Shown: positions 3,001 through 28,253, numbered from the stretch's first letter. The stretch: 31,678 nt of DNA from a virus (IMGVR_UViG_3300025276_000123:1-31678); one strand, 5' to 3'. Numbers and translations: made by a program. The notes: generated by a model not told the origin, from the letters alone.

Positions 3001-6000
3001 ACTTTCCTCAGATTGAAGCCCTTCATTTTTGTATTGGTCAGCAAATCTATCAAGCTCTTTAAGTAATTTTGGAGACGCAACCTTACGAACAGTAGTCATC
3101 ATATCAGATGTAACCTTCTGTGCTCTAGCGTTTGTTATGCCATCCTTAAGTAACAATGCGTGGAATACTTCGTGTGCAACCGTTCTTAGGTTTGCTTTTT
3201 CAAGGTTTATCTTTATAGTTTTTGATGATGGTACATACGAACCACCCTCATTAAGGTTACCTCCAGAAGCTACATACTCTTGCTTTGTCTCATAAACCTC
3301 AATGGCAACACCCTTAGCAATCTTTGATAAAGCTTTTCTAGCTTTTTTTACTTGCCTTCTAATTCCAATCTTACCATACTTGGTAGTTATTTTTTCTATT
3401 CCAGTGGCCTTTGTAGCTTCTCTTGGTGTAGCTTTAGTTTTTAGTGCAGCCTTTGTAGTTTCTTTTGGCTTGGGAGCTTTAAGTGTATCAAGAACAAACT
3501 TCTTAAAATAAAACTCGTTTGCGGAGAACCCTTGATCTTCTGTAAATGATAATGCATCGTCTATAGATTGCATTATTGTCATTCCTGACGCATAAGAGTT
3601 TCTAAGAACTTTTAACGCATTAGTTACAATCGACTCAGGTGCAGATATTCTTTCGTTAAATGCAGGCTTTGATCCTTGTGTTTTTTGTTGTCTTGTAGCT
3701 AGACGTTCATTAATAGCATTATCTATTCTTTGTAATTCTTCTTTTTTAAAGTCATCTATAAGTTTTTCTGCATTAGCTAAAGCCTTTGTTTCTTGGTTTG
3801 ATTTCTTAGACTTAAATACACCTATAGCTTTACTTCTCTTTGCTTCTTCTCTAGTGCCAATCAGTTTACCACTTTCGTTCATCTGAGATACAGTGAAAGA
3901 ACCATCGTCATTCTTGGTTACTTGAAATACGTCTTCTCCAACCTGAACTAAGTCTTTGTTTTTAGAATCTTGAGCGGCCTCATCAAGAGCCATTTCTTCA
4001 AACTCTTGGACACTTTTCTGAGACTCTTCCTCCATTTGAGATAACTCCTCTAAGGATTTTTTATCGTACTCTTCTCTGGCTTTTTTCTTTTCTGCAACCC
4101 TTTCGGCTCTTCTTTCTTTTTTAGTAGGACTAACAACTTCTTTTCCTTCTGTTGTTAACGGTAGCGTAGTTTCCTTTTTTACCTTTCTAAGCTGGATATC
4201 CTTTAAAACCCTTTCAGCTTTAGCTCCTTTAATTCTTCTTACTAACCCTGTACCTATTTCCTTTACTTTTACTACAGCCTTTCCTTTTTTATCCTTACTT
4301 CTACCTATTACATTGTACTTTTTACCATCTACAGATACAACATCTGAATCCATAGTTTTTGCTTGTACATCTAAACCTTCAGTTGGCATTGTAGTTAAAC
4401 CAAAACCAGCGATAGGCTCAGAACCTACCTCATCTTTATTTCCAAGTTCAATTATTTCGTCACCCGACTCAAATATAATGGTATTCTCATTTGTTGGGTC
4501 AATCTTTATATTACCCTCTTTGCCGTTTATGTAAACCTTTTCTTCTTTGTTTGCGTTATCTAAAAGACTACCTTGCTCTTCTCTTGATTGCACCTCTGCT
4601 TCTAGTTCTTCTAGAGCTTCCTGGGGTATTGTTTCAACCTCCGAGGATTTCTCGGTAGTAGCGATTGATATAAGTTCATTATACTTGTTGTATATTTCCT
4701 CAAACTTAGCTTTATCTTCAGGGTTAGTTATCTTTTTTCCATCAACCTTACCATCTGTTAAATAGTTCTCAGAGTTAGGAATAGCCTCAAGCAATTCTAC
4801 TTGCTCTTCTGCTCTTAATTTTTCTACTTCTTTTCCATTATTCTGTCCATCGCTTGACACATCTGTTGCAGGTTGCTCAATTGTTTCGGTTTCAGTTTCG
4901 GTTTCAGTTTCTCCTGTTGTTTCTTTTTCAAATTCTTCATTAGGGTTACCGATATTCTCTAGACTGGCTTGAACTTCTTTAAGTCTTACCGCCTCTGTTT
5001 TAGTTAACGAAACGTTATCAACGTCTTTTATTTTATTCTTTAACTTCGCCTCTTCAATTAAAAGCCTTACTGCTTCTGGCTTATTTTCTGAGGTTAGCCT
5101 ATCTATTTTATTGGCTGTATTTACAGCACCCTGAGTGCTTCTAAAGTTTTCTTTTATAGCATTAGATTCCTCTTGAGTCATTCTGCCGTTAGCGACCTCT
5201 ATTTCAACCTGCTCGTCAACAAGGTTTGATGTGTTTTTGTTGGACGCAAGTGTTATAGTTGTTTCGTCAATGTCTGTGTTAGGATCGAATACGGATGATG
5301 CGTTTTTATATCCCCCTTCCGTAGCCGTCTTATTTGCCTGAACCCTTCCGCTTACAGTCTTTAAGTTTTTATAAGCGGCAGGAACTACACTAATTCCTGC
5401 TCCACCAAACTCACCAATTACCTCAAGAGCTATATCTTTAGCGTTCATCTCTTGGCCTATTACAGCCCTAGCACTAGCTTCACCAACACCTCCACCAGCA
5501 CCCTCTACTAGTACACCACCAGCAATACCAGCAGTTTTTATAGCCGTCCTAGACGCAATGTTTTTCCCTAATGGTACTGCCTTTTTAAGAACTGTGCCTG
5601 TAAATTTACCTGCGACCCCTGCTGTTATAACGTCTACAGCAGAAATTACAGCACCCCTAGCAATTGCTTTTTGTCTTAAAGTAGAAAGTTTTTCTGGGTC
5701 GCTTAAAACCATCTTAACTTTTTCAGGAGTAAGTACCCCACCTATTTCTTCTTGAAGGAGTTCATTGAATGTTAATGCTGCCTCCATAGTACCGGATAAT
5801 GCAGCATACCCACCAATCATAGCCCCTCCTGTTGATGTTAAAGGAGCGAACACTCCTCCAGCTAATCCAAGTGCAGCACCAGTACCAACACCCGCAGCGG
5901 TAGCAGCGACAGCCTGTTCTGATTGAAGAGAGCCGACCATTGTAGCCATCGAACTTACCATTACTGGTATTGCAATTCCAGGGTTATTTATTGTTGCCAT

Positions 6001-6564
6001 CAGAATACCATAAACTCCTCCACCATTCTTATCAACATCTTTATCCCATGATGCCATTTCATCTTGAATCTTTTGGTTTTTACTTAATTTCTCATTTGCT
6101 CTTATGTATTTATATATTTCGTTAACCGAAGCATCTGCTCCAGAAGTCATTAAATCCATTGATGGGTCTACGGCTGCTGATTGTGCTACACCTTGTACCC
6201 CTGCCCTCCATAAATCTCCTAGAGTATCGGTAACTTCGTTCTTCCCAAAAACCCTTTCAACAAGAGTGTCTTCTTCTTGTGATTCCGATGAACCACCCTC
6301 CGATGCTAAACCCGTATCTGCTGGTGTGGTCGCATCCTCTACCGCAACAGCATCCATCTTTGCTAGACTACCATCACCTAGTACGTTAGCCTTCCAAGTA
6401 TCAAGGTCGCTATCGGTTAATTTTTTATCAACTAAATAGTTGTGTACATTATTCTGTACTTCTTTATTCTCACTGATGTTCGTTTTCCATGAGTCAAATT
6501 CAGAGTCTGTTAAATTATTAGAAGACAAGTCCTTCCAAATATTCATTAAAATTTCTTCGTTCAT
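1..6564 (-). CDS. Giant multidomain virion protein with zincin-type protease motif (C-terminus cut off by window edge)
   Basis: An open frame starts at ATG 6564 and runs without a stop to the left edge, giving 2188 residues so far. Two W-containing motifs (LTDSEFDSW near residue 18, LTDSDLDTW near 47) open the protein. A Gly/Ala-rich hydrophobic stretch lies at about residues 181-268, a Glu/Thr run at 551-561 and a Lys/Glu coiled coil at about 810-865. HEVFH at 1131-1135 is followed by EESIAELF at 1186-1193, which looks like a gluzincin-type HExxH plus distal Glu. Further long coiled coils fill roughly 1650-2000. The gene is last in the tail/internal-protein block, 9 bases after the preceding stop. 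Giant proteins here in podoviruses and crAss-like phages are often packaged and ejected, and may carry protease, lytic or RNA polymerase domains. I saw no DxDGD polymerase motif. The zincin is fairly secure; packaging or ejection is inference. Confidence 0.85.
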   Translation of the reverse strand, partial: MNEEILMNIWKDLSSNNLTDSEFDSWKTNISENKEVQNNVHNYLVDKKLTDSDLDTWKANVLGDGSLAKMDAVAVEDATTPADTGLASEGGSSESQEEDTLVERVFGKNEVTDTLGDLWRAGVQGVAQSAAVDPSMDLMTSGADASVNEIYKYIRANEKLSKNQKIQDEMASWDKDVDKNGGGVYGILMATINNPGIAIPVMVSSMATMVGSLQSEQAVAATAAGVGTGAALGLAGGVFAPLTSTGGAMIGGYAALSGTMEAALTFNELLQEEIGGVLTPEKVKMVLSDPEKLSTLRQKAIARGAVISAVDVITAGVAGKFTGTVLKKAVPLGKNIASRTAIKTAGIAGGVLVEGAGGGVGEASARAVIGQEMNAKDIALEVIGEFGGAGISVVPAAYKNLKTVSGRVQANKTATEGGYKNASSVFDPNTDIDETTITLASNKNTSNLVDEQVEIEVANGRMTQEESNAIKENFRSTQGAVNTANKIDRLTSENKPEAVRLLIEEAKLKNKIKDVDNVSLTKTEAVRLKEVQASLENIGNPNEEFEKETTGETETETETETIEQPATDVSSDGQNNGKEVEKLRAEEQVELLEAIPNSENYLTDGKVDGKKITNPEDKAKFEEIYNKYNELISIATTEKSSEVETIPQEALEELEAEVQSREEQGSLLDNANKEEKVYINGKEGNIKIDPTNENTIIFESGDEIIELGNKDEVGSEPIAGFGLTTMPTEGLDVQAKTMDSDVVSVDGKKYNVIGRSKDKKGKAVVKVKEIGTGLVRRIKGAKAERVLKDIQLRKVKKETTLPLTTEGKEVVSPTKKERRAERVAEKKKAREEYDKKSLEELSQMEEESQKSVQEFEEMALDEAAQDSKNKDLVQVGEDVFQVTKNDDGSFTVSQMNESGKLIGTREEAKRSKAIGVFKSKKSNQETKALANAEKLIDDFKKEELQRIDNAINERLATRQQKTQGSKPAFNERISAPESIVTNALKVLRNSYASGMTIMQSIDDALSFTEDQGFSANEFYFKKFVLDTLKAPKPKETTKAALKTKATPREATKATGIEKITTKYGKIGIRRQVKKARKALSKIAKGVAIEVYETKQEYVASGGNLNEGGSYVPSSKTIKINLEKANLRTVAHEVFHALLLKDGITNARAQKVTSDMMTTVRKVASPKLLKELDRFADQYKNEGLQSEESIAELFGILAENYESSTQSVKDLIKDFLRKLAKALNVPVEGILDSDKQVLEFLNVVSAKVASGEVIEQSDIEILENEEQGESGEVGTLIIPRQQIDVIDSKNAKNDPRKWIRDLVDNIDLINIEGTNFVTNMYDYTNAGVTELGNGYSIDLLGGRNYVPLMMTKKGKKLGDVSNLAAFNTKSQAEGFIKNAIDGKANMFAPHAGTLKDSWQFQQHIFESLVSLVLDTNILTNKEIIKLFDSNLRNESAKKTYAAKIKSIKEKGYYIKKVEGKDVMVTKKPNKPTQFLSAFKKFRDKSGLNISNLDSFESDPKELVRLLDIENNFSPDLRKSFNGKIASNKKFQKAIGVKNLKEFYQRIMDPLNEGVVGGELMTFIQFDPSTFEVSKTNTKDIDHHPSFGWVVSAKIEKILQPTKFYKSYDVTDSYTKHNKKDVVVSSKSDEGFIITNVSSSAGAQPKVATIKTPQTRQQLQEDFTIKDVIEDADKEGLTRKETIDVLQELGFSKDEIRGAMKPVKKKTTSIASETKGLSITERFKQGFEEFIDSVKNDKRKAREVSAQKLRDEIAKVKELFRAKIKQGEAARADVIKEIRVIIKESNLKEVSNRTVQKIMKSVDQANATNMQKKISDVMDAISRDIDRRAMNARIKTFKLAKSKLSRLAHLKDLEAPVLAVLKLNPKQLSKEALKNYDKVITSLSNIETKRDVKDRNIIKSDANAVIKSFTEDNNEAEGIAETINQNLDLSKTKTENLKQMLKDGLISDSQLEIITRFKELIGNSDNKGFTIEELEEKAAEKRAEAVEDFEVAVEEAPKFLDNLSDDDKAALKFAKTLKVEDLDMLSTSQINILTRGVEMLQAGFVTTNLVQSKLIVEANRNEQAIPLSEIKESGVVDKSISSAKVAVINMFKGRGKLVTSIRNRLNSSPLKNIDQVLSAGAKKFKSTMIYENVFRPVSRAFASAEQMMLDINADLKKANAILDISANKRWVQKAKIMIYQIQREFESNLN
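4884..4911. repeat. Short hexamer repeat coding a Glu-Thr run
   Basis: About four and a half alternating copies of TTTCGG/TTTCAG lie inside the giant gene. On the coding strand they encode an alternating Glu-Thr tract at about residues 551-561. This marks a low-complexity linker between the N-terminal hydrophobic part and the central region. Such repeats can change length by slippage in whole-codon steps without breaking the frame. Confidence 0.8.
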
Positions 6565-9822: not shown

Positions 9823-12165
9823 TTATGATTTTACAAAGTTCGAAGATACAGTAAATAAAGTCTTTAACCCCCCTAATTCTGTAGTATTATCTGTTCTTAA
9901 TTTAACTGTAGCAAAGAAACCTTTTATACCACTCATACTTGAGCCTGGAACTACTTGTCCTGGCTGACCAAACGATACGTTTTGGTTAGTGCCACTAATC
10001 AACACGCCTTTATTTATTAAGTTGGCTACATATTTATTCTCCTTTCTATTAAATCCAACCCTTCTTACAACTCCATTCTCAGTGTAAACCCCTTCATCAT
10101 AGCTATATATAGAAGACGCTTCATCTTTGTAATTGTTTGATTCTGAGTTTATTGCTGTAGGGCCTGTTCTATCAGATAGAAAGTAATCAACTTGCCAACC
10201 ATTAGTTCCTTCGTAATTAATTGTATTAAAGTTCTTAGATGTAGATGCAACTGGATTAAAAGATAGCTGCACTGAAGTAGGATAATAAGTTCCATAGAAG
10301 TACCCTCTATTATTAATTACAGATTCATTGTAATGTTTCCACACATTCCCACCTTCGATAGAATAATATACGCTATTTATAGTGTCCATAAACGCTGGCT
10401 TGTAATCCCAAAGACTAGTCCACCCGTTTACCGTATCAGCAAACGATAAGGTATCGTAAGCACTAGTTGCCCCATCCTGTATAGATATAACGTAGTTGTC
10501 ATAGTAGTTATCGTATCCACCAACAATTTTATCATTGATAAGTTTATAGAAACTAAAGTCCTCGTTTGCAGGTGTTACGCCTGAGGGTAGTGTTAGTATA
10601 CGGTCAAATATCAATCTCTTAGCAGTTGTAGAAATATTTGTTAAATTAGATTCTATTATTGTTACGGTAAGAAATCCAATTTGAGCAGGGTCGCCAGGTG
10701 GAACAGAAATAGTTCCTATATTATCAGTGTTAATTGATATGACATCGCCTACTGAATAAAAAGTGCCAGGAACAGTTGCCGTCACACTTGATACCGCACC
10801 AGCACCATCAACTACTACAACAATAGTAGCTGAACTTTGACCGCTAGACCCACGAGATGTAGTGAATCCTCCAGACCCCTCGGTAAGTGTGTACGATGCG
10901 GGCCCTCCATTTAAAGCAGGCACGTTATTAGTTATAGTTAAAGCCCCCGTCAACCCTCCTACATCCTGCTTTGAATAAACATATACCCCGCTATTACCAT
11001 ATATCGATGACGAAAACTGCATACCAAGTTCTAGGTTACTAATCAACCCTGTAGAAGAGTCTTCAGCTATAATGGAGTTTGTTGGGAAAATAGTCGATAG
11101 TCCAGGGTTTGCTGCGTATAGCTTTAATGTAAGCAAGCTACTAAGTTCTGGCTGTTCAGATACGGCAGCAAGCTTATCTCTAAAATAGTCACGCATACCA
11201 TACATACTTATTTCAGTAAGTCCGTCTGTTGACAATCTCATTACAGCTCCCCTGTTTTTATCTGAAAAGTATAATCTACTTCCTTTGAATGCAAAAGACT
11301 CTGGGTTGTTACTTATGCCATACTCTCCAGAATATTGAGTAATGCTTCCTATAACAAGTGACGATGCTGTTTTTAAAGCATCCCCATCGGCTGTATATAT
11401 TTCATCTTTATCTATCAACGCCCTGCTTATCTTATCATTTTGAAAGATAACTAAATTTGTGTTTGAGGCATATAATTTTTGTATTCCCCCATATCTAGGG
11501 TCTACTTGAGTTTGAATTTTTTCTGCTACAGAAAATACGTTAGTATCGTTAAATCCAGTTGTAGAATTGTAAAGGCCAGAATAAATTATTCCATTGCTCA
11601 ATATTAACTCATCATCAGTGGTTTCCTTTATATATGCCCTAACTCCAAGGTCAACTTGTTTGTTATTATAACCTCCCCGTATTCTAGACTCCTCTATATA
11701 CCACATGTAAACATCGTCATTTCCATTTGGATAAATATCAGTTGACACAAGATTAGGGAAGAGTGGGTATCCGTTAGGATTCCATGGCAACCCAGGCCAC
11801 ACAGCTTTACCTGATCCTTGATTGAATAAATCTGGAATTGCTGCAACGGTTATTGTAGTTCCTGAAGATCCTACTCCTAATTGACCTGCTGTTACAGTTA
11901 TAATGTCTCCAACTGAGTATCCCCTACCTGTGGTAGTTACAGCCAAAGTAACAATTGTAGAACTAATAACATTAGCTGACATTTTCAATTCTACTCCTGA
12001 ACCTGAAGTTGTCGATGCTATATTAGTATAAAAGCCTATAGTTCCGCTTGTAATACCTGTATTGGCTAATACCTTACCGATGTTCAGTTCCGTATCTACA
12101 TTTGCCTCAACTAATTTTTTAACTATAAACGAATTGAAATATGTTACTTCTCTTATTGTAGCCAT
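9823..12165 (-). CDS. Large beta-rich tail protein (nozzle/muzzle or stabilisation type), 780 aa
   Basis: The protein is beta-rich, full of Ser, Thr, Gly, Asn and Tyr, with no cysteine-based or enzymatic motif visible. Its middle, from about residue 150 to 380, has repeating blade-like blocks such as MWYIEESRIRGGY, QKLYASNTNLVIFQNDKISR and GISNNPESFAFKGSRLYFSD. These recall the beta-propeller-like tail (nozzle, muzzle, stabilisation) proteins of podoviruses and crAss-like phages. Two copies of a Gly/Ser/Thr-rich module with a G-x-x-YSVGD core sit at about residues 41-112 and 420-510. Similar modules occur in the two upstream tail genes. The ORF starts 6 bases after the stop of the 1595-residue gene. 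A distal tail component is likely; the exact part is unknown. Confidence 0.82.
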   Translation of the reverse strand: MATIREVTYFNSFIVKKLVEANVDTELNIGKVLANTGITSGTIGFYTNIASTTSGSGVELKMSANVISSTIVTLAVTTTGRGYSVGDIITVTAGQLGVGSSGTTITVAAIPDLFNQGSGKAVWPGLPWNPNGYPLFPNLVSTDIYPNGNDDVYMWYIEESRIRGGYNNKQVDLGVRAYIKETTDDELILSNGIIYSGLYNSTTGFNDTNVFSVAEKIQTQVDPRYGGIQKLYASNTNLVIFQNDKISRALIDKDEIYTADGDALKTASSLVIGSITQYSGEYGISNNPESFAFKGSRLYFSDKNRGAVMRLSTDGLTEISMYGMRDYFRDKLAAVSEQPELSSLLTLKLYAANPGLSTIFPTNSIIAEDSSTGLISNLELGMQFSSSIYGNSGVYVYSKQDVGGLTGALTITNNVPALNGGPASYTLTEGSGGFTTSRGSSGQSSATIVVVVDGAGAVSSVTATVPGTFYSVGDVISINTDNIGTISVPPGDPAQIGFLTVTIIESNLTNISTTAKRLIFDRILTLPSGVTPANEDFSFYKLINDKIVGGYDNYYDNYVISIQDGATSAYDTLSFADTVNGWTSLWDYKPAFMDTINSVYYSIEGGNVWKHYNESVINNRGYFYGTYYPTSVQLSFNPVASTSKNFNTINYEGTNGWQVDYFLSDRTGPTAINSESNNYKDEASSIYSYDEGVYTENGVVRRVGFNRKENKYVANLINKGVLISGTNQNVSFGQPGQVVPGSSMSGIKGFFATVKLRTDNTTELGGLKTLFTVSSNFVKS

Positions 12166-12171
12166 TCTAAT

Positions 12172-15100
12172 TTAATTTTCACGAAGTGTAAAGTATATTG
12201 TTGTAGTAGTAGAAAGACTTCCACTAAGACCAGACGCATCACTTAATTTTAAGCTAACCCTAAATTGTGTGTCTACTCTTTTATTGTATGTGTACAAATC
12301 GACTATACCGCTAGGAGTACCCGCAGCATTAGTATTCAGAGTGATAAATTCACTTGAATATGATAATGTTTCTGCTGAAATAGCTCCTTGGGCAGAACCA
12401 AGTAACATCCAACTAACTTTATTGTAATCAATAGCACCATTGTACATAGATGGAGAGTATGGCGTCCAAGTATTATTATTGCCAACCCACAGAAACTCTA
12501 CGTTAGTAACCTGCCAAAGTAACCCTCTTTTAAATATACTAGGGTCAGTTGTATTTGCACTTCCATTCTTTCCGTTCAAGTCATATAAAGTTCTATATCC
12601 AGCAACACTAAATTCTTGTGCATCTGGTATAGGATTAGGTATAGCTGCATAACCAGGAACAAAGTTGTCTAATTCATTTGCTTCGTTTGTTGTTATATCT
12701 TTAGAAAATACTTCACCGCTAGCTAAGGTCTTAGTAAACCTAATCGTAAAATTATACCTATCTTTTATATAAGACTGAGAGTCGTATGCAAAGTATTTAC
12801 CTACGGCTATCTTTAATCTAAACTTGTATTGGTCAGTCCCAGCAGTAGTATTTTGCTCTAACGTAAAGTAAGAGGTGTTTGATAGTATATTACCATTACC
12901 ATCAACAACTTTAATTATCTCTCCCTTAAGGTCTGCTCCAACTATACTAATGCCCGTACTATTTGTTACATCAAAAAAGTCTTTATTTACATAATAAGGA
13001 GTTGCGATAGTTGAAAAATTACTTTCGTTTAACTCCCAAGACCAGTCCGCAATTAAAGAAGGGTCGTTTATATCTGAATCTTGATTAATATAATTGTTTA
13101 ACTGTGATATAAGTCCACTTGAACTAGATTCGTAATAGATATCTAAGTTAGATTCAAATGGAGTTGTTTCATATACATTTAATCTTAATTTTTCAAAGGA
13201 AACATTGGCAGACTTATTTCCTCCGGTAGCACCTATAAGTTTTTCTGTATTAATAGACGCTACATATGGGTTGCCGCCTTTTACGCTAGCCGAAGGAACG
13301 CTATAAAATGGAGATATGTATGCTAAATTACCTTTAGAACCTTTATTTGCACCTATATCCGGTATCAATCCAATTCTTCCTACGTCATCCGCTATTCCAT
13401 TTAATGATGGGAAATATTGCCTATTAGAATTAGCATTATCGTAATATCTATTGTTCCAAACTCTACCGTATAGCTTAACAGAGCTAGAGAAAGTAAGGTC
13501 TTGTGATGCAGATGTTTTTAAGTCTCTAGAAACTTTATTTACATTATCGCTAAATAAAGTTATAAAAGCTAAATCTTCATTTACTTCAATATTTTTAGGG
13601 GAGATAGTTAAAGATGCCCACCCTTCTCCAAGAGTATAATTAGATGGATTAATAAAAGTTAAAGTTTTTCCGCTTGAATCTATTTCAGATAAGGTTACGT
13701 TTATAGCACTAAGGTTTGTGTTAGTGCCTTGTAAATAAGCTCCAATCCACATATCCGGAACTGGCTCTGAGTCGCTAGATAAGTCACAAAATTCATCCGC
13801 ACCAGTGTTGTTTACCATTTTTCTGATATTAATTCTCAACACATCAGGCTGCGGCTTGTTGTTTAATATTGTAGGTAGATATACATTATAATAATCTTGA
13901 GCACTTTGCTTTACCACAACCTTATAACTATACCACCCAAGGGGATTTGTAAGGCTATACAATCCTGCATATCCCTCCCTGTCTATTACAGAAGGAATAA
14001 CTCCACCCCAATTTATTTTTAACGAATCACCTAAATAAGATTTTATACCAGACCTACTTTGTCTATAATCATTAAATACAGTTGAATTATCAGAAGTTAT
14101 AACGTCAGATTGCCTTCCAAATTTATCAGCCAAAACTATTCCAATCTCATATGACCTACTTTGCTTTAGGTTATGATTTGGATATTCAACTTGATTAAAT
14201 GAATTATATGTTCCATAGCTTTGCTTTTCTCCAGATGTAGCTATATAATTTAGTTTGTTTGGCCTTGATGTTCTATCTAGATAGTTTCCATATATTACCC
14301 TATTCCCTGCAACTTCTTGTGCTTTAGCTCTAATTGGAGCTCTATCAGCAGCTCTAGAAAAATCTACAGAACGTAAGGTTCTTATAGGCATTGAAGCATT
14401 ATATTTATATGTATATTGATTTGTTACTAGACCTATAAAAGAATCTTTTGTTATTGTATCTATTATTTTTATATTAGATTCATCAGAGTCTTTATATAAA
14501 ATATCTATTTCTATAACCTTTAATTTATCGTATAATTCGGCTGGCGTATTAATACCCTCTGGCATATCTATAGTAATGCCAACTTGGTTTACTTTGTTTT
14601 CAAAAAATGCTATTATAGTGCTTTTTATCGCTCTGTTTTCATCAGAGTTAGACTCAACGTCATCAATACTTTCTGGAATTGAATCTTCTAAAAAGTAGCC
14701 GTCTTGTCTTGGTATAAAAGCTGCCTGTGTGAACGGAGCTATTAAAGAATATTGGTTATCATCAAACTTAAACCTATAGCTAAACCTAACAAATTTTTCA
14801 GATAAAAAATCTTTATCTCCATCAAATGTGGTATCGTAAAATGGGTTAGCAGAAAATGTTACAATATCAGATACAGCTATGTTTGATGTTGAATCGTGGG
14901 TAATCTGATTACCTCCAGTATTAGCCGTTATGCTAATATTATCAGATAATATAATTTTAGGGTCACCATCAGAATTAGTACTAGTTATTTTAGAGTTAAC
15001 GAAAGAACTCGTAGGTAGTAAAGTTAACCTTGTCGCATCTAAATCTAGAATTAAATCATTAGACAATCCTGGAATAGGGCCTCGTCCTGCGAGAGAAACT

Positions 15101-16959
15101 CCTCTTAGAATTTTTATTTGATTCCCACTAGAGTAATTATTCCCAGAAGAAACGACATTTATATTAATCGTATTTCTAATAACATCAGAATCTTCAAGAG
15201 TGACTACTAACACAGTGCTTCCCGAACCCATAGATCCAGCAGGAAATGTTATTGTATCAGACACTGAATATCCATCTCCTGGGATAACAACTTCTATGCT
15301 TGCTGACACAGCAGACAATGAAATTAAATTAAAAGTAGCTCCTGATCCTGAACCATTTGTAGTAAAACTTACATTATTAAATAAACCGTTAACCTTTGCA
15401 CCGGTAACCTGTGTGCTTATACTAGAGTTTAAAGTTCCAACTCCTACCCTTAACTTACCTGAGAGTGTTGGGACATCTATAACGCTAACAGAGACTTCTA
15501 ACCCAAGACCCTCAAGCCCAGCCCCAGTGCCTTGTAGCAACTCAAAATTTTTAGCATTAGGTACAAATGGACTAGGAGATTGCGTTAAAAGTATAGGTCT
15601 AGGAGTTGAGTCGGCTGTTTCTTGAAATATTCTACTCCATATATTATCTCCTCTTTTTACAGGTGACCCGTAATTAAAAACAGTGGATGGGGTAATTGCA
15701 GCAACCTTACGCTCTATAGCACCAGGCAGATTCTCACTAACAACATCCTTCATTGTTGGTGTTTGAGCTATATTCTGACTTCCAATGGTAAGTACTATAT
15801 CACCCGAGGGTAATGCGGTTGGGTTAGTCCAAGGGCTACCTATAGTTATAGTATCCCCAATACTGAAGTTATTGCCTCCAGTAACAAGAGCAGGGACTGT
15901 TGAAGGTACGGTTATTACTAAATCATTACCTACCCCACCACCAAAACTTGCGCCAGAAAAGGTTACTGTATTTCCACTTGTATATCCTGTACCAGCAGAG
16001 GTAATGCTAACGTCTGTTACTGTAGCAGAGCCGACAGCACCAGTAGTTGTTATACTAACAGTTAAACCTACACCAGAACCAGTTGTAGCACTTTGAATAA
16101 CCCCAGTAGTAGTTGTTGGGTTTTTATTTGTTGGATTCGTAGTTATATTGCTTGTTAAGTTAACATTAAAATCACTAACAAATAAGCTAGAAATATTTTG
16201 ATTTGGAGAAGTTCCTTCTATGGTTATCGATATGTAAGCATCGATTCCGTCACCGCTAGTCGTCCAGCCAGCAGATCCTACCTGCTCAATGTATGTTCCA
16301 GAAGGTTTAACAATTACAAGTGGCTGAGTAGTTATTAAAAGCTCACTTCTTACCTCTAAAGGGTATTGGCTTGTTTTTCCTGGGGATAATATATTCTTAG
16401 ATAATCGAGGAGCATTCCAAGGGAAGTACCTTAACACTGAAATATTATCCTCATTCGTATAATAAGTGGAATCTGATATTGCAGAATTAACATTTATTTT
16501 TCTAGGCTGATTCCTATTATCTGTAAAAAATAATAAATCTTCTAGTAAATTTACAGCAAGTATACGCTTTGTTTTGCTAAAGTTTAAAAAACTCCCCGAT
16601 ACTAAGGTAGTTGAGGTGTTAGTCTTAATATCATACATGCATATGTAATGACTAGAGGCTGGTGAAGCAAAGTTTGACACGCCTTCAGGAGATGGGTCAT
16701 TCCAGTTCGTTACAAACAAAAACATTCTATCTAATATCTTATCTGAAAATAAGCCTACTATCTCTAAATTCTCTCCAATTAAATTAAGATTAGTTAATAA
16801 TGTATTACCCTCAACATTTTGAAGCAACCCTGATTCTCCACCTTCAGAATTTAATACTGTAGCGTTCCTTGCGTCTATGTACTGTGTACTAGGGATTAAT
16901 CTAGGGCTAAGATCTTTATTCATCTTAGAGCCTGTAAATTGATTATTAGCTTCTGGCAT
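12172..16959 (-). CDS. Very large beta-rich tail protein (muzzle/nozzle type), 1595 aa
   Basis: The N-terminal 160 residues (MPEANNQFTGSKMNKDLSPR, then IDARNATV, FLFVTNWND, DLLFFTDNRNQPRKINV) look like blades of a tail nozzle or stabilisation protein. From about residue 240 to 620 the chain is a Gly/Ser/Thr-rich beta region with several copies of a module whose core is G-T-G-Y-x-x-G-x-T-V-T-F. One copy, residues 274-344, matches a copy in the ring-type gene at 18127-19185 nearly base for base. The part from about 700 to 1000 again looks like tail beta-sandwich or propeller sequence (RAPIRAKAQEVAGNRVIYGN). No enzymatic site is visible. The gene starts 3 bases after the adaptor gene. It is probably the main body of the tail tube or muzzle; the domain count is a guess. 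Confidence 0.85.
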   Translation of the reverse strand: MPEANNQFTGSKMNKDLSPRLIPSTQYIDARNATVLNSEGGESGLLQNVEGNTLLTNLNLIGENLEIVGLFSDKILDRMFLFVTNWNDPSPEGVSNFASPASSHYICMYDIKTNTSTTLVSGSFLNFSKTKRILAVNLLEDLLFFTDNRNQPRKINVNSAISDSTYYTNEDNISVLRYFPWNAPRLSKNILSPGKTSQYPLEVRSELLITTQPLVIVKPSGTYIEQVGSAGWTTSGDGIDAYISITIEGTSPNQNISSLFVSDFNVNLTSNITTNPTNKNPTTTTGVIQSATTGSGVGLTVSITTTGAVGSATVTDVSITSAGTGYTSGNTVTFSGASFGGGVGNDLVITVPSTVPALVTGGNNFSIGDTITIGSPWTNPTALPSGDIVLTIGSQNIAQTPTMKDVVSENLPGAIERKVAAITPSTVFNYGSPVKRGDNIWSRIFQETADSTPRPILLTQSPSPFVPNAKNFELLQGTGAGLEGLGLEVSVSVIDVPTLSGKLRVGVGTLNSSISTQVTGAKVNGLFNNVSFTTNGSGSGATFNLISLSAVSASIEVVIPGDGYSVSDTITFPAGSMGSGSTVLVVTLEDSDVIRNTININVVSSGNNYSSGNQIKILRGVSLAGRGPIPGLSNDLILDLDATRLTLLPTSSFVNSKITSTNSDGDPKIILSDNISITANTGGNQITHDSTSNIAVSDIVTFSANPFYDTTFDGDKDFLSEKFVRFSYRFKFDDNQYSLIAPFTQAAFIPRQDGYFLEDSIPESIDDVESNSDENRAIKSTIIAFFENKVNQVGITIDMPEGINTPAELYDKLKVIEIDILYKDSDESNIKIIDTITKDSFIGLVTNQYTYKYNASMPIRTLRSVDFSRAADRAPIRAKAQEVAGNRVIYGNYLDRTSRPNKLNYIATSGEKQSYGTYNSFNQVEYPNHNLKQSRSYEIGIVLADKFGRQSDVITSDNSTVFNDYRQSRSGIKSYLGDSLKINWGGVIPSVIDREGYAGLYSLTNPLGWYSYKVVVKQSAQDYYNVYLPTILNNKPQPDVLRINIRKMVNNTGADEFCDLSSDSEPVPDMWIGAYLQGTNTNLSAINVTLSEIDSSGKTLTFINPSNYTLGEGWASLTISPKNIEVNEDLAFITLFSDNVNKVSRDLKTSASQDLTFSSSVKLYGRVWNNRYYDNANSNRQYFPSLNGIADDVGRIGLIPDIGANKGSKGNLAYISPFYSVPSASVKGGNPYVASINTEKLIGATGGNKSANVSFEKLRLNVYETTPFESNLDIYYESSSSGLISQLNNYINQDSDINDPSLIADWSWELNESNFSTIATPYYVNKDFFDVTNSTGISIVGADLKGEIIKVVDGNGNILSNTSYFTLEQNTTAGTDQYKFRLKIAVGKYFAYDSQSYIKDRYNFTIRFTKTLASGEVFSKDITTNEANELDNFVPGYAAIPNPIPDAQEFSVAGYRTLYDLNGKNGSANTTDPSIFKRGLLWQVTNVEFLWVGNNNTWTPYSPSMYNGAIDYNKVSWMLLGSAQGAISAETLSYSSEFITLNTNAAGTPSGIVDLYTYNKRVDTQFRVSLKLSDASGLSGSLSTTTTIYFTLREN
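15929..16138. repeat. Cross-gene repeat, copy A (pairs with 18332-18541)
   Basis: These 210 bases align without gaps to 18332-18541 in the same reading frame. By hand count 34 of 210 positions differ (about 84% identity), with many of the changes at third codon positions. The encoded block (residues about 274-344 of the 1595-residue tail protein) contains TTGSGVGLTVSITT and SITSAGTGY. The similarity fades immediately beyond both ends, so only this module is shared. Confidence 0.9.
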
Positions 16960-16962
16960 ATT

Positions 16963-18123
16963 TTAAGATTTTATCCATTTAGATTTACCTCTCATAACTT
17001 GAACTATCTCACCTAGCTTTATGTTAGACAGCCTTATTTTTGCGTTTCTAAGTTTAGCACTTCGTTCTCGTCTTAATCTATTAACAACGTATTCTGGCTG
17101 ATTGATTCTACTGGCTATTATTGCGTGGCTTATATGGCTGTACATAGCGTCCTCTATCATCTTGGGAACCCTAGTGTCCAAGTCGTATGCTAGACCGTCA
17201 GAAATGTACTCTATGGTTATCATAACGTCCTTTAAATTGCTTGAAAAGGTGAATACGCCTCTAACCTCATCGATACCAAACCACCCGTTTCTTTGTGTAA
17301 GTTGAGGCTCTAGACCATATCTCTGTCCGTTTACGCCACCCCAAAAACTATCTCCCCAATAATCTCTATCAAAATCAAAACCTTGATTTAGCTGTGTGTT
17401 ACTAAAAGTTCCTGATATTATGCTAGCATTAGCTTTTCTCCACCTCTGTACTGTTTCAGGTGGATCAGTTTCTATATTCTCACCAAATCCATCTTGCACT
17501 GGGACTCCTTTATTGTCTTGCTCTAATGCTTGAGCTGGGTTTATAGTTAAGTTATTGTTCGGGTATATTATTCTTTTAACACCTAAGTTGTCTATCCAAG
17601 ATAACCTAACGTAATTAACGTAATCCTGTGGTATTATAGCTGTTAGGCTAGGTGACATAGTTAGCTCCTGAGACTTAATACTTTTTAACGTATCGTAGCT
17701 AAACTCTTGCATACCACGTTTAGCATGAAATATAATGTCTGTTCTTTTAGCACTAAGTATTAGTTTGCCAGCACCAACATATGCAACCATAAAGTTATTG
17801 ATTATATCATTAAGGCTAGTGTATTGATAACCACCATAGTTAGACCTTAAAGCATTTGTGCTTAGGGTAATTAAAATTACCGCTAAATTAGCAGGTGCAA
17901 CATTAAATTTTATAATGTTGTTTGCCATAGTGAATGTACCAGGTGCAAGACCATTTACAGTTACCGTATAGTTTGCATTAGAAGCACCAACAACAGCGTT
18001 AGCTAAGTCTGTGTTAAAATTACAAACAAATGATAACGTAACACCATCACCTATAAAGCCTTGCTGACCTGAATAATACTGAGCATTAGTTTCGGTTATT
18101 AAACCACCATTTGGATTTGGCAT
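16963..18123 (-). CDS. Head-tail adaptor / tail ring protein, 386 aa
   Basis: A 386-residue protein with a beta-rich N-terminus (about 1-100) and a mixed core holding RGMQEFSYDTLKSIKSQEL (135-153) and IIPQDYVNYVRLSWIDNLGV (164-183). The helical basic C-terminus from about 310 ends in GKSKWIKS. The pattern of an E-L or E-F helix followed by a P-x-DYV-x-Y strand recalls tail tubular protein A or adaptor rings of podoviruses and the ring proteins of crAss-like phages. It lies between the other ring-type gene and the giant tail protein, with gaps of 3 bases on each side, as expected for neck parts. Ring identity is from resemblance and order; which ring cannot be said. Confidence 0.8.
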   Translation of the reverse strand: MPNPNGGLITETNAQYYSGQQGFIGDGVTLSFVCNFNTDLANAVVGASNANYTVTVNGLAPGTFTMANNIIKFNVAPANLAVILITLSTNALRSNYGGYQYTSLNDIINNFMVAYVGAGKLILSAKRTDIIFHAKRGMQEFSYDTLKSIKSQELTMSPSLTAIIPQDYVNYVRLSWIDNLGVKRIIYPNNNLTINPAQALEQDNKGVPVQDGFGENIETDPPETVQRWRKANASIISGTFSNTQLNQGFDFDRDYWGDSFWGGVNGQRYGLEPQLTQRNGWFGIDEVRGVFTFSSNLKDVMITIEYISDGLAYDLDTRVPKMIEDAMYSHISHAIIASRINQPEYVVNRLRRERSAKLRNAKIRLSNIKLGEIVQVMRGKSKWIKS

Positions 18124-18126
18124 ATC

Positions 18127-19185
18127 TTATCTTTTTGAGTTGTTTTCTTCTTGCTGGATTTGAGAAGCAGCAACTTGAATAATCTGAGGATCTTTTACTA
18201 CAACACCGAAGTAGAATAAAGTTTTTAATATAAAACTTGTCTGTTCCGATACGTCTAGTTCTATTTGAGTTGAGCCATAAGTGCTATTAGAGTTAAAATT
18301 AGAATCTTGTAACGTCACCTCCAAACTACCACCTACACCACCGCCAAAACTTGCACTAGAAAAAGTTACTGTATCTGCACTTACGTATCCCGTACCAGCA
18401 GAGGTGATACTAACATCTGTTACTGTGGCAGATCCAGCAGCACCAATAGTTGTTATACTAACAGTTAAGCCCACCCCAGAGCCAGTCGTAGTACTTTGGA
18501 CGACCCCAGTAGTAATCGCTGGGTCTTTGTCTGTTGGATTCACGCCTGTTATACTACCTGTTAGCGTTCCAGAGCCAGTGTTTAATAGTAATGGCCCGTA
18601 TACGGTAGGGTCATAAACATACTGTCCTACAGTTCCAATTGAATAACCCCACCTAGGGTCTATTGGCTTTCTTAAGAAGTCACAGTTTATATTACTAATA
18701 ATAGTATCAGGCTTTACGAATAACCTTTCATTTTCTAGTAAATAAGTTGGGAATGTTTCTGTTGATTTTGTTAATGGAGATTTTTGAATGTTATAAAAAT
18801 CCATTCTTTGAAGTCTTTGGAGTTCGACTTGTTCTTTGTAGTTAACAACACCTAGCCTGTAAAGCTCTACGGTATTATTAAAAACGTCAGTAGTAGGCAA
18901 TGTAAAATGAGCAGGAGTTGGGGCAGCAGCGGCTACATAAGCAGCAGGCCCTGATGTTTTAAATATAGAAAGGTGCTCATCAATAGCAGCAACTCTATCT
19001 GCGTAATCTGTATCTGTCTGAGGTATACGAAGTTGCTGGTTTAAATCTTCGCCATACTGTTCAAATGTTTCTAGCTGAACCTGTGTGGCAATTTTATTAA
19101 ACTCATCTGGAGTTACATAGCCCCTCTCTTCCTTGTTGAGTATTAATAATACAGTCTTGTATACCGTATTCACGTTTATTGCCAT
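18127..19185 (-). CDS. Tail ring/neck protein carrying an inserted Gly/Ser/Thr beta module, 352 aa
   Basis: The N-terminal 190 residues are mostly helical (MAINVNTVYKTVLLILNKEE, RGYVTPDEFNKIATQVQLE, and an acidic Gln-rich helix). They look like neck or ring proteins of Bacteroidota podoviruses. A beta module of about 90 residues (roughly 199-295) interrupts this, followed by a short helical end (ELDVSEQTSFILKTLFYFGV). Residues 215-285 are encoded by DNA about 84% identical to part of the 1595-residue gene. The helical-beta-helical layout suggests the module was inserted into an older ring protein between GPLLLN and STQIEL. ATG 19185 follows a 72-base gap with a hairpin and begins the tail gene group. 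Ring assignment is inferential. Confidence 0.8.
   Translation of the reverse strand: MAINVNTVYKTVLLILNKEERGYVTPDEFNKIATQVQLETFEQYGEDLNQQLRIPQTDTDYADRVAAIDEHLSIFKTSGPAAYVAAAAPTPAHFTLPTTDVFNNTVELYRLGVVNYKEQVELQRLQRMDFYNIQKSPLTKSTETFPTYLLENERLFVKPDTIISNINCDFLRKPIDPRWGYSIGTVGQYVYDPTVYGPLLLNTGSGTLTGSITGVNPTDKDPAITTGVVQSTTTGSGVGLTVSITTIGAAGSATVTDVSITSAGTGYVSADTVTFSSASFGGGVGGSLEVTLQDSNFNSNSTYGSTQIELDVSEQTSFILKTLFYFGVVVKDPQIIQVAASQIQQEENNSKR
18332..18541. repeat. Cross-gene repeat, copy B (pairs with 15929-16138)
   Basis: Copy B of the module shared by two tail genes, in the same orientation and frame as copy A and about 2.4 kb upstream of it in transcription order. It encodes residues about 215-285 of the 352-residue ring-type protein. 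The most conserved run includes TGTCAC-free stretches such as GGTGTAGG and the block for VTDVSITSAGTGY, which is unchanged in protein between the two copies. Confidence 0.9.
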
Positions 19186-19209
19186 ATTATTTTGTGTTTT
19201 ATTTATAAA

Positions 19210-19236
19210 GGTGAGCCAACATTAAGTCAGCCCACC
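19210..19236 (-). terminator. Hairpin between head and tail gene groups (weak terminator or RNA-stability element)
   Basis: On the minus strand GGTGGGCTGAC, a five-base loop TTAAT and GTTGGCTCACC form an 11-pair stem with three G-U pairs. It lies in the 72-base gap after the 253-residue gene and before the ring gene. The run after it (TTTATAAATAAAACAC) is only partly T-rich. It may be a leaky terminator or a processing or stability hairpin rather than a full stop. Confidence 0.55.
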
Positions 19237-19257
19237 ACTATAAATTATAGTTACATA

Positions 19258-20019
19258 TTAAGAGAATTTTTTCTCTATACTTTTATACACTAACATTCCT
19301 TCATCAGTTTTAAACCAACTAGCTAATGCCGAGTAAGGGTGTTCGTCAAAAGGAACTTCCATTAGCTTTCTGCCGTTGATTACCCATTTGAATGTTTTTT
19401 GATCTGAAGACAATGCTATTATTCCGGCCTCAGCAGCTCTAATACCAAAGCTTCTTAGCTCAACATTCTCATCTTGTGCTAAACTTATAAATAAAGCTGG
19501 ATTGCTTTTAGCTAATAACATCAAATCTCTTTTAAGTTCCTTACTGCTCATTGTAGATACAGCACTACCTAATTCTGTTCTTAGTATTGCTTCAGCATGC
19601 TCTAACTCAAGTGTGTTAGCAAGATTTAATGCTTCTATCTCAAGCTGAATGTCATCTAGCTGATTTACAGCGTTTGCAACCTCATCTTGTTCTTTATACG
19701 TTAAACCTCTCTGAGGGTGATATAAAGATAATAGCTTTTGTAAGTTTTGCTTATTCTTAGGAACCATTAATACTCCTTGTATAAATACAATATGTGCAAG
19801 AGTTACAGGGCCTTTTTGTTCATCTACAAATGTTGATAATTGATTTGTAGCGTACCTTAACTCTCTTTCATATCCTAGTTTCTCGTCAAAATACATCATA
19901 GGATGTAATTCTGAATGCTTACTAGCTAATGTCATTGTTAGTGGGCTTTTATTGTGAGAAAGATAGTATCTTCTGTCCTTCAGTTCCCAAGTGTCTTTTG
20001 TTTTTTCTTTTGCTTTCAT
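19258..20019 (-). CDS. Conserved head-associated protein of unknown function, 253 aa
   Basis: A 253-residue mostly helical protein directly after the capsid gene and its terminator. The N-terminus (KDRRYYLSHNKSPLTMTLAS, then LHPMMYFDEKLGYERELRYA and VDEQKGPVTLAHIVFIQGVL) resembles proteins I recall next to the major capsid gene in marine phages. The middle is a helical region of about 100 residues. The C-terminus FKWVINGRKLMEVPFDEHPY then ends in short helices. No enzymatic motif, membrane segment or signal is visible. Location suggests a head-completion, decoration or minor capsid part, but nothing in the sequence proves it. ATG 20019 follows an AT-rich leader with no Shine-Dalgarno. Confidence 0.8.
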   Translation of the reverse strand: MKAKEKTKDTWELKDRRYYLSHNKSPLTMTLASKHSELHPMMYFDEKLGYERELRYATNQLSTFVDEQKGPVTLAHIVFIQGVLMVPKNKQNLQKLLSLYHPQRGLTYKEQDEVANAVNQLDDIQLEIEALNLANTLELEHAEAILRTELGSAVSTMSSKELKRDLMLLAKSNPALFISLAQDENVELRSFGIRAAEAGIIALSSDQKTFKWVINGRKLMEVPFDEHPYSALASWFKTDEGMLVYKSIEKKFS

Positions 20020-20039
20020 AAAATATAATATAATAAATA

Positions 20040-20083
20040 AATAAAAAAAATAAAACTTAGGGCCACAAAGCGTGACCCCAAGT
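20040..20083 (-). terminator. Strong intrinsic terminator after the major capsid gene
   Basis: On the minus strand ACTTGGGGTCAC, loop GCTTT and GTGGCCCTAAGT form a 12-pair stem with two G-U pairs. It is followed at once by TTTTATTTTTTTTATTT, a classic U-tract. It begins 18 bases past the capsid stop codon, inside an 82-base gap. A terminator here would let capsid mRNA be made in excess over the tail genes, by partial readthrough or by a separate downstream start I could not identify. Confidence 0.85.
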
Positions 20084-20101
20084 AATATTTATTGCTTATA
20101 A

Positions 20102-21577
20102 TTAAGCTGCTGTGAATAACACGAAGTTATTAGCTGCTTGAGTTACTAAACATCTCTCAGATAAGAAACTTACTTCCATCTTATCAAAAGTAGAAGTAGC
20201 TGCTCCACCAACAGAACCAGTAATCCAAGACTTCATTCTGCGGTCATCAGCTTCAGAAGCTCTGTATCGTACATGTAGAAATGGTCGTCTGATGTTAGTA
20301 CCTAGCATTTGATCGTAAACTGTGCTTGTTCCAGCAGGAACCATAACACCTTTAATGTTGTCAATCATACCACGAGTAGTAGCATCGTTCAAATATTTCC
20401 AATCAGTCTTGTAGAAATCATAAGAACCTCTTCTAAAACCATCGAATCCTAAGTTCAATGCCATTTCCTCAGAGTTTTCGAAAACTCCATAAGAAGTACC
20501 ACCAGCTCCATAAGAGTTCTGAGCAGCTAACATATCATCAAAATCCAAAGATGTAGCTCTATCTAAGAATAACATGTTTTCTTCAATAGCCCCTTGCTTG
20601 TCAAGATTTTGCAAAATTAAATCAAAGTCTCCTAAAGCACTTCTAGCTCCAGCACCACCTGTTCCAGTTCCGTTTGCGTAGTTTTGGTATACGTTACCTC
20701 TTGCAGTAATTGCAGCAAATAACCCTTCAGTACCAGCAGTTGTAATTCCTGCTCCTAAAGCAACCTGACTAACAACACCAGAAGCGGCAGTAGCAGTTTC
20801 ACCTTCAACAACAGCCATCTCTAGGTAATCTTGAAAACGTAGACGAGTTTCGCCTTCTGATTTCAAATACCATAGATATCCAGATGTTCCATCTTCAGTA
20901 GCAACTTCAACCCAACCAATTTGAGCAGCATCAGAACCACTTATTTCATAAGAATCCTTAATGATAATCGGCTTGTTGTTAAACTGCGTAAATGAAGCCT
21001 CAAGAGAACCAGTCATTCCGTCTGTACCTTTACCAAATTCAGACCCGTAAACGAATAGGTTTACAGCTCCGTTTGCAATGCTAGTTAAATCAGCAGTAGT
21101 ATATGATAATACGGTAAATGTTCTAGCTGTTTGATTGATAGCAGAAACATAACATTTTAATGTTACAAATCCAGTAGCAGCATCAGCGATAACAACAGTG
21201 TTACCTACTCTTACTGACATGTTATGGTCAGAACCTAAAGTAATTGTTGAACCAGCCGCTGTTGCAGCACCACTAAGTACAACACTTAAGTTTCCTGCTC
21301 CGTTCTCATATCCGATATGTAACCTGTTTTGCTCAGACCATATAACTTGATCAGAAGTCATTGGCATCTCAGCACCAACCATACGCAAGAATCCAGATAA
21401 AGTTCTGTTTCCGTATCGCTCTACTTCAGCTTCATAAATTTCTGGTAAATACTGCTGTGCAAAATCGTTTCCGCTTCCGTCAGCAAAGTTTAAATAATTT
21501 GATGCCAAAGTTGTTTTAGTTGGCATCGGTCTTAGGCTAAATGCACCTAGTGGATCGTTTGTTCCAAATTGTCCCAT
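20102..21577 (-). CDS. Major capsid protein (HK97-fold candidate), 491 aa
   Basis: The 491-residue product starts at ATG 21577 after an A-rich leader with no Shine-Dalgarno. It has the length and pattern of crAss-like and marine Bacteroidota podovirus capsid proteins. An N-terminal arm (EIYEAEVERYGNRTLSGFLR) is followed by a beta-rich domain of about residues 73-190. Then come ISGSDAAQIGWVEV and GYLWYLKSEGETRLRFQDYL, and helices holding DLILQNLDKQGAIEENMLFL. The C-terminal part contains FYKTDWKYLNDATTRGMID and RPFLHVRYRASEADDRRMKS. The beta domain is probably an insertion or E-loop/A-domain element. It sits between scaffold and a strong terminator, the usual place for the most expressed gene. 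HK97 fold is from family knowledge, not shown here. Confidence 0.9.
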   Translation of the reverse strand: MGQFGTNDPLGAFSLRPMPTKTTLASNYLNFADGSGNDFAQQYLPEIYEAEVERYGNRTLSGFLRMVGAEMPMTSDQVIWSEQNRLHIGYENGAGNLSVVLSGAATAAGSTITLGSDHNMSVRVGNTVVIADAATGFVTLKCYVSAINQTARTFTVLSYTTADLTSIANGAVNLFVYGSEFGKGTDGMTGSLEASFTQFNNKPIIIKDSYEISGSDAAQIGWVEVATEDGTSGYLWYLKSEGETRLRFQDYLEMAVVEGETATAASGVVSQVALGAGITTAGTEGLFAAITARGNVYQNYANGTGTGGAGARSALGDFDLILQNLDKQGAIEENMLFLDRATSLDFDDMLAAQNSYGAGGTSYGVFENSEEMALNLGFDGFRRGSYDFYKTDWKYLNDATTRGMIDNIKGVMVPAGTSTVYDQMLGTNIRRPFLHVRYRASEADDRRMKSWITGSVGGAATSTFDKMEVSFLSERCLVTQAANNFVLFTAA

Positions 21578-27424: not shown

Positions 27425-27712
27425 TTACTCGAACTTCGCTCTCCCTTCGGCAAATCCTTTAAATTTTTGCTGTTTCTTAGAATCACCTTTTTTATCAATG
27501 TCATTTAGCATTTGTTCTTCCTCTTGTATTCTGTTAAGAATCTCAAAAGCATCAAATATAGCTAATTTTTTAGTAGCTGCCGCATTTTTTAATTTGTCTG
27601 CTGTTAGGTCATCATCAGAATCCACGATAGGTTCTTTAGCCACCTTAATCAATTCCTCAACAGCTTTTTGCCCAGCTTGGATTATACTCTTTTTCGTTTC
27701 CTTTACGTTCAT
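27425..27712 (-). CDS. Small terminase subunit candidate / conserved small helical protein, 95 aa
   Basis: A 95-residue helical protein immediately upstream of the large terminase, with KAVEELIKVAKEP then DDDLTADKLKNAAATKKLAI, FDAFEILNRIQEEEQ and a basic C-terminus (KQQKFKGFAEGRAKFE). Small terminase subunits usually precede the large one and are often short and helical, so this is the best candidate in the window. No clear HTH is visible, so the identity stays open. I choose ATG 27712 over a TTG at 27724 because ATG is used by every other gene here. The start overlaps the end of the GroES-like gene by 56 bases. The large terminase ATG lies one base after this stop. Confidence 0.75.
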   Translation of the reverse strand: MNVKETKKSIIQAGQKAVEELIKVAKEPIVDSDDDLTADKLKNAAATKKLAIFDAFEILNRIQEEEQMLNDIDKKGDSKKQQKFKGFAEGRAKFE

Positions 27713-28253
27713 GTTTCGCAACAATATTAATTAATTTCATACAATATAATAATTCTCCGTCTATTACAAACTCAAATTCAGATGTCGGTCTAAAAGAAAC
27801 TAAATCACCCTCGTAAACTCCAAGTTTGCTTAATACCTTATTACCGTGTTTTAATAAGCCCATAAGAGGCTTCTCCTTGCTTGTAATAAAAATATCATGG
27901 TTTACTATAGGTTTTACAAAACAGTAGTCTAAATGAGCTGTATTAGCTCCGTACATGTATATTTGCTCTGGTGAGCAGGCGTACATATCTTCTTTTATAA
28001 AACTCCTACTGTTTTTCTCCTTACCTCTTATATCGTAAAACCTTCTAAAGATATTATGGTGAACTATAACCTTATCCCCAATCTTTATATCTGTTTTTAT
28101 TGATAACGGTAAAGCAACCACCTCAGCAACTTTGCTTATACTTTTAAATTCTTCTATTTTTGTATTCACTACAAGATCTACATTCCCAACTTTGACTGTG
28201 TTATTGTATCTCCCTTCTATAGGCTTTACAATAAAATCATTTACACTTTTCAT
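27657..28253 (-). CDS. GroES/Cpn10-like double-barrel protein (putative phage co-chaperonin), 198 aa
   Basis: The protein looks like two Cpn10-type beta barrels in tandem. The first (about 6-103) has IVKPIEGRY, AEVVALPL and GDKVIVHHNIFRRFYD, then EDMYACSPEQIYMYG. The second (about 110-180) has DYCFVKPI, VYEGDLVSFRPTSEFEFVID and GELLYCMKLINIVAKHE. G-D-x-V followed by I-D-G-E-x-L-Y and I-x-A-K is the end pattern of GroES family members. Double-length Cpn10-like proteins occur in marine phages, where they are thought to help fold capsid proteins with host GroEL; that role is inferred here. A mobile loop I could not identify with confidence. Its start overlaps the previous stop by one base (TAATG), and its last 56 bases overlap the small-terminase candidate. 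Confidence 0.7.
   Translation of the reverse strand: MKSVNDFIVKPIEGRYNNTVKVGNVDLVVNTKIEEFKSISKVAEVVALPLSIKTDIKIGDKVIVHHNIFRRFYDIRGKEKNSRSFIKEDMYACSPEQIYMYGANTAHLDYCFVKPIVNHDIFITSKEKPLMGLLKHGNKVLSKLGVYEGDLVSFRPTSEFEFVIDGELLYCMKLINIVAKHERKGNEKEYNPSWAKSC

Follow-up and report, generated by a model that had tools for sequence, protein, structure and literature searches.

Do two similar copies of a protein module within one phage genome derive from each other, or can they have reached their genes separately? This question is raised by two neighbouring tail genes on a 31,678-base IMG/VR record, a genome fragment which we refer to throughout, as the whole stretch of DNA that was analysed, as the window. 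A preliminary description of this DNA had proposed that a decoration domain was copied, or transferred by gene conversion, between a nozzle-type and a ring-type gene of the same genome, followed by selection on the protein. We found that terminase, portal, muzzle and other virion genes of the window match crAss-like phage families, the upstream terminase and portal matching phrog_6681 and phrog_6547 (E = 3e−161 and 4e−141), which belong to the same Crassvirales group. At the protein level the nearest cultured relatives are phages of Cellulophaga and Flavobacterium. These matches identify the window as part of the genome of a crAss-like phage, a bacterial virus, which is probably of marine origin. 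The window also carries a gene for a GroES-like co-chaperonin at 27657–28253, close to the terminase (phrog_13932, E = 1e−21), and at 1–6564 a giant open frame which codes for at least 2188 aa and extends past the window edge; its residues 52–564 match phrog_32588 (function unknown).

A beta module repeated in two tail genes

A repeat search found that 15928–16138 and 18331–18541 align over 211 ungapped bases with 83.9% identity (83.8% over 210 nt), which makes this the strongest repeat in the window; the second-best direct repeat is only 41 nt long, at 71%. Both copies lie on the minus strand and are read in one frame, in the genes encoding P0001 (1595 aa) and P0002 (352 aa). The repeat of about 84% over 210 ungapped in-frame bases that had first been counted by hand was thus recovered, with an identity above 80%, and so was a beta module common to both host proteins. 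Over the full module the nozzle and ring copies share 75–82% amino acid identity, and P0001 and P0002 are without similarity outside it. The edges of the repeat were less sharp than had been described, since similarity fades over approximately 8 further codons on each side, with one 1-codon indel, leaving flank remnants such as NLTSNIT versus TLTGSITG and LVITV versus LEVTL.

The copies differ by 21 synonymous changes per 58.2 sites and by 13 non-synonymous changes per 151.8 sites (Fisher: P = 4.8e−6), giving dS = 0.49, dN = 0.09 and dN/dS of approximately 0.185 over 210 nt. Both copies are kept under purifying selection, as had been proposed. T, S and G are abundant in the module, so that convergence or a low-complexity likeness between Thr/Ser/Gly-rich beta sequences could be considered, as could an assembly artefact. 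We regard all of these as extremely improbable: convergence is opposed by an in-frame DNA identity of 84% with an excess of synonymous change, and an artefact by an independent second contig (L049/L005), in which nozzle and module are again joined and which ends inside the nozzle copy.

An optional cassette in the tail-barrel ring protein

P0002, the host of copy 1 (18127–19185, minus strand), matches PHROG 14543, a virion structural protein family. We modelled its structure from 66 orthologues (mean pLDDT 86.6); this model replaced a poor one from 17 sequences (pLDDT 57). Its best three PDB matches are the phicrAss001 ring chains 7qoj D, F and E (E = 4e−5 to 7e−4; TM to target 0.41–0.51), by which P0002 is predicted to be a crassvirus tail-barrel ring protein. 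The phicrAss001 rings consist of helices and a beta-sandwich (Bayfield et al. 2023, PMC10172136; PDB 7qoj), a fold like that of P0002, and an optional ring cassette is not described in the available part of that report. The rings without an insert in our set have 243–266 aa, similar to the 226–238 aa of the 7qoj chains, compared to 352 aa for the ring of the window.

The difference in length lies in one place. Ring orthologues align end to end but for a single slot between the motifs GQYVYD and STQIELDV, located between the last strand of the ring beta domain and the C-terminal helices. In the window, alignment and tree place the whole insert at residues 193–304 (18274–18609, minus strand), and within it the ring beta module at residues 203–294 (18304–18579, minus strand; profile match of 100 bits) includes the repeated 18332–18541 and is predicted as a beta domain with a pLDDT of about 92. 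The slot is filled in 22 of 78 distinct full-length rings, with an insert of about 95–120 residues, and empty in the other 56, with at most about 20 residues; in L045 and L046 the empty slot was seen at the DNA level. In a tree of ring bodies only, the filled or empty state changes at least 4 times, and an eight-member clade including the window (support 97/99) is half filled and half empty. As all distant rings except L029 are empty, an empty slot was probably the ancestral state, to which the nested empty rings would have returned secondarily.

We also compared synonymous divergence between cassettes and ring bodies. The window and L007 differ by dS = 0.11 in their ring bodies and by 0.32 in their cassettes, while for L006 and L007 the order is reversed (0.42 in the ring bodies and 0.13 in the cassettes), and the ring bodies of L006 (filled) and L018 (empty) differ by only 0.12. 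These distances indicate that ring cassette and ring body have different histories and, together with the distribution of filled and empty slots, that the ring module is an optional, exchangeable cassette.

What looks like a recent exchange was found in L008, which is nearly SNP-free relative to the window, with only 8 SNPs over 4.7 kb; 57 of 65 SNPs fall in a 1.4-kb tract around the cassette (18025–19399, by sliding identity). Here a stretch of 246 nt (18301–18546, minus strand) is replaced in L008 by an unrelated-looking in-frame cassette for which there is no DNA alignment, and this stretch closely coincides with the repeat module. The rest of the L008 ring is 97–99% identical to that of the window and its frame is intact. 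We read 18025–19399 as a recombination tract, and the pattern as that of homologous recombination through the conserved ring flanks. It should be noted that assembly may account for part of the L008 mosaic, because metagenome assemblers can pass from one strain to another where sequences are identical, although the different cassette within an intact ring frame would stand despite this. L049 is 100% identical to the window at 15948–20429 (sense coordinates about 11250–15731) and mostly 80–92% identical elsewhere, which is a sign of mosaic strains or of strain joins in assembly.

The nozzle copy and its source

P0001, the host of copy 2 (12172–16959, minus strand), matches PHROG 14478. P0001 and the next gene (9823–12165, minus strand, 780 aa) match, respectively, the start and the later part of the phrog_14478 profile, and the latter gene also matches the Pfam family crAss_MUZ_C (E = 5e−9, 36.9 bits versus a cut-off of 27), as the C-terminal half of a muzzle. 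The muzzle is a single gene in L023, L024 and L025 (1543–1556 aa), as it is in phicrAss001, and two adjacent genes in the window (9823–16959) and in most relatives. Because one profile spans both genes and they are fused in L023 to L025, we take the two products together to be the muzzle, with P0001 as the nozzle, or N-terminal, half of a protein split over two genes. These profile matches, with the predicted ring fold, agree with the nozzle-type and ring-type hosts named in the preliminary description. In phicrAss001 the muzzle has Ig-like domains inserted between and into its propeller blades (PMC10172136), and by analogy this propeller and Ig-domain region would include the part of P0001 beyond residue 188, which is rich in inserts.

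The repeated 15929–16138 belongs to nozzle module A, which occupies residues 267–352 (15904–16161, minus strand). Among nozzles this subtype was only found in the window and in L049/L005, one contig which is 100% identical to the window here. It is absent from L022, of which the nozzle N-terminus is 86% identical, from L018, L006, L014, L016 and others, and no other nozzle orthologue reaching the site carries it; both the ring and the nozzle gene therefore have orthologues without the module. The L022 nozzle matches the module profile weakly around the insertion point, suggesting that a distant member of this domain family already resided there and received module A in one of its loops. Two further modules were found in the muzzle: nozzle module B, a divergent family member at residues 505–590 (15190–15447, minus strand; 53.5 bits, E = 1e−15) which is missing from L022 as an alignment gap, and a module at the N-terminus of the muzzle C-terminal half, at residues 39–108 (11842–12051, minus strand; E = 2e−9), which is inserted relative to L022. 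The nearest relative of the latter is the ring cassette of L008 (55% amino acid identity; 108 of 163 aligned DNA columns identical).

Divergent family members are present in the nozzle and muzzle of many relatives, which would be expected if an ancestor had carried the module in both genes and it had repeatedly been lost elsewhere. We consider this old vertical paralogy improbable, as the module A subtype is absent from the other nozzles reaching the site, including the closely similar one of L022, and the dS of 0.49 between the copies falls within the range of closely related ring bodies (dS up to 0.66).

If the ring gene had recently served as donor to the nozzle gene within this genome, by copying or gene conversion, this would account for two copies which lie 2.4 kb apart in the same orientation with 84% identity, and for a nozzle copy that is private to this haplotype. 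However, when the full module is compared at the DNA level, the nozzle copy is closer to the ring copies of L006 (83.1%) and L007 (81.2%) than to that of its own genome (78.8%). The ring cassettes of the window and of its two closest ring relatives, L006 and L007, form a clade that excludes the nozzle copy (support 98/95), and a tree forcing the two window copies together was rejected, weakly (p-AU = 0.04, 258 columns). The joint tree of all modules has poor resolution (long branches meet, and 12 of 39 branches are starred) and was used only for its well-supported subgroup. The dS of 0.49 also speaks against a recent event, and the long identical tract that is a sign of recent gene conversion is absent between the copies. 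The module in the nozzle was thus probably not copied recently from the ring module of the same genome, and we judge copying within the genome to be unlikely overall, a possible variant being an older in-genome copy with later replacement of the ring allele. Of the earlier proposal, the shared beta module and its selection stand, while intragenomic copying as stated does not.

The nozzle copy is better explained as an older one, taken from a pool of shared cassettes, than as a recent in-genome copy, on evidence from the window and one partial contig which are 100% identical in the region. Because ring cassettes are exchanged between genomes, the donor may be another phage or an older, since-replaced ring allele. 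Similar copies within one genome need not derive from each other when cassettes move between genomes.

The reading which we prefer (probability roughly 70%) is that the repeat represents two members of a small beta-domain family which serve as exchangeable cassettes in surface loops of tail-tip proteins; this probability applies to the explanation as a whole, including ring-slot exchange, nozzle insertion, later purifying selection and inferred decoration. Cassettes in the ring slot would most likely be swapped between co-infecting phages by homologous recombination via the conserved ring flanks, probably driven by an Erf-type annealing protein of the phage. Phage annealing recombinases, Erf type included, have been reported to be active on diverged phage DNA (PMC3945230). 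An ERF recombinase was found in 6 of 11 records of relatives and was not found within the 31.7-kb fragment; RecT, for which we searched beside ERF, was not found. Switching by a retroelement (DGR) was rejected, as there was no RVT_1 in the 11 records, which may be incomplete, while controls were positive. The nozzle copy would have arisen when a cassette of the same subtype, from an allele that predates the present ring alleles of that subtype or falls outside them, was inserted into a loop of the resident distant family member, an event which would be rarer than ring-slot exchange and may proceed via less homologous annealing. Both copies would afterwards have been held by purifying selection.

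As the module is dispensable among close relatives, lies in an inter-element loop of the ring and has relatives in exposed tail parts, we infer that it is an outer decoration or adhesion domain. It may decorate the outer tail barrel and the muzzle, and tune weak cell-surface contacts or the stability of the virion. More tentatively, recombination may move cassettes from a shared beta-cassette pool both between genomes and among ring, nozzle and muzzle, with the conserved edges as exchange points, allowing the tail surface to change in a modular way.

The gene between ring and nozzle, encoding P0003 (16963–18123), also has a segment which varies in presence, at residues about 20–94; it is missing in L009 and L012 to L016 (about 311 versus 386 aa) and is without a match to the module profile. 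In L005/L049, frame breaks split P0003 and the start of the nozzle while the DNA is otherwise identical, and these are possibly sequencing errors.

The wider module family and related systems

We examined how far the module family extends using a profile made from nine modules, which found additional members within the window. Family members have approximately 70–95 residues, are beta-rich and follow the pattern GxGx..V..V..GxGYxxGDxITI..GG..L.ITL. By tblastn, related modules were found in 175 phage records, all of marine cyanophages (38–45% identity, best E = 3e−4), where the matches are annotated as structural, tail fibre, neck and other virion proteins. Only module subtypes other than the nozzle type reach these proteins, and the nozzle-type module alone gave nothing at E = 0.01 against phage records. 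Among the PHROG matches of the module are families of baseplate wedge and head closure proteins. Virion proteins of cyanophages were also matched by fold over about the module length, and one predicted cyanophage protein named Ig-like was among these fold matches (E = 3e−3, with a query larger than the module alone). In cyanomyoviruses the likeness, by tblastn and by fold, to structural, tail fibre, neck and baseplate proteins is restricted to the module, and both the phage group and the host proteins differ from those described here.

Against PDB sequences the module profile gave only a chance-level match to a ribosomal protein, and the ring profile and the nozzle gave no match. A scan of contigs with the narrow module subtype added none beyond those already known; the diverse module alignment was too variable for this purpose. 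No Ig match for the module and no BACON match were seen in the Pfam searches, and matches to poxvirus I1 and ChrB_N were below cut-off and disregarded. The best match to Gp18_dom_I had 17.2 bits (E = 0.005), and membership of this Pfam family is not supported, because every match was below the cut-off of 27 bits and covered only part of the model. Domain I of the T4 tail sheath protein gp18 is a small inserted beta domain which protrudes and is dispensable for subunit contacts (PMC3004832), and we regard it as the best functional analogy to the module despite the weak similarity.

For the BACON repeats of crAss-like phages, which are tail-associated beta domains, both duplication and the horizontal transfer of individual domains are described as routes of spread (de Jonge et al. 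2019, PMC6949934). BACON is however another domain and forms tandem arrays in gut phages, whereas the module described here occurs as single cassettes in separate genes and slots. Smug et al. (2023, PMC10684548) report that unrelated virion proteins share homologous domains through ongoing shuffling, and take identity of at least 70% between domains of non-homologous proteins as recently emerged mosaicism; the 75–82% amino acid identity of the module in non-homologous ring and nozzle proteins lies within this range. In the searched part of that article crAss-like phages are unmentioned. Compared to the cases it reports, the module occupies a fixed slot in a core tail-barrel ring, which is empty, filled or swapped in near-identical contigs, and has reached a second virion gene. 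We consider this well-supported domain mosaicism in the core of the crassvirus tail. The module acts like an interchangeable surface attachment, one which has been transferred from virus to virus as well as among tail genes. Fibres and lysins are the best-known examples of domain shuffling in phages, and here it extends to the core ring of the crassvirus tail barrel. As near-identical contigs show the slot empty, filled and swapped, it can be tested directly what is exchanged, how often, and with what consequence for infection.

The same type of module was also seen in a 338-aa protein of L034 (5680–6693, 50% identity), apparently a T4-like marine phage, where it adjoins a gene resembling the T4-type capsid gene, probably that of the major capsid protein.
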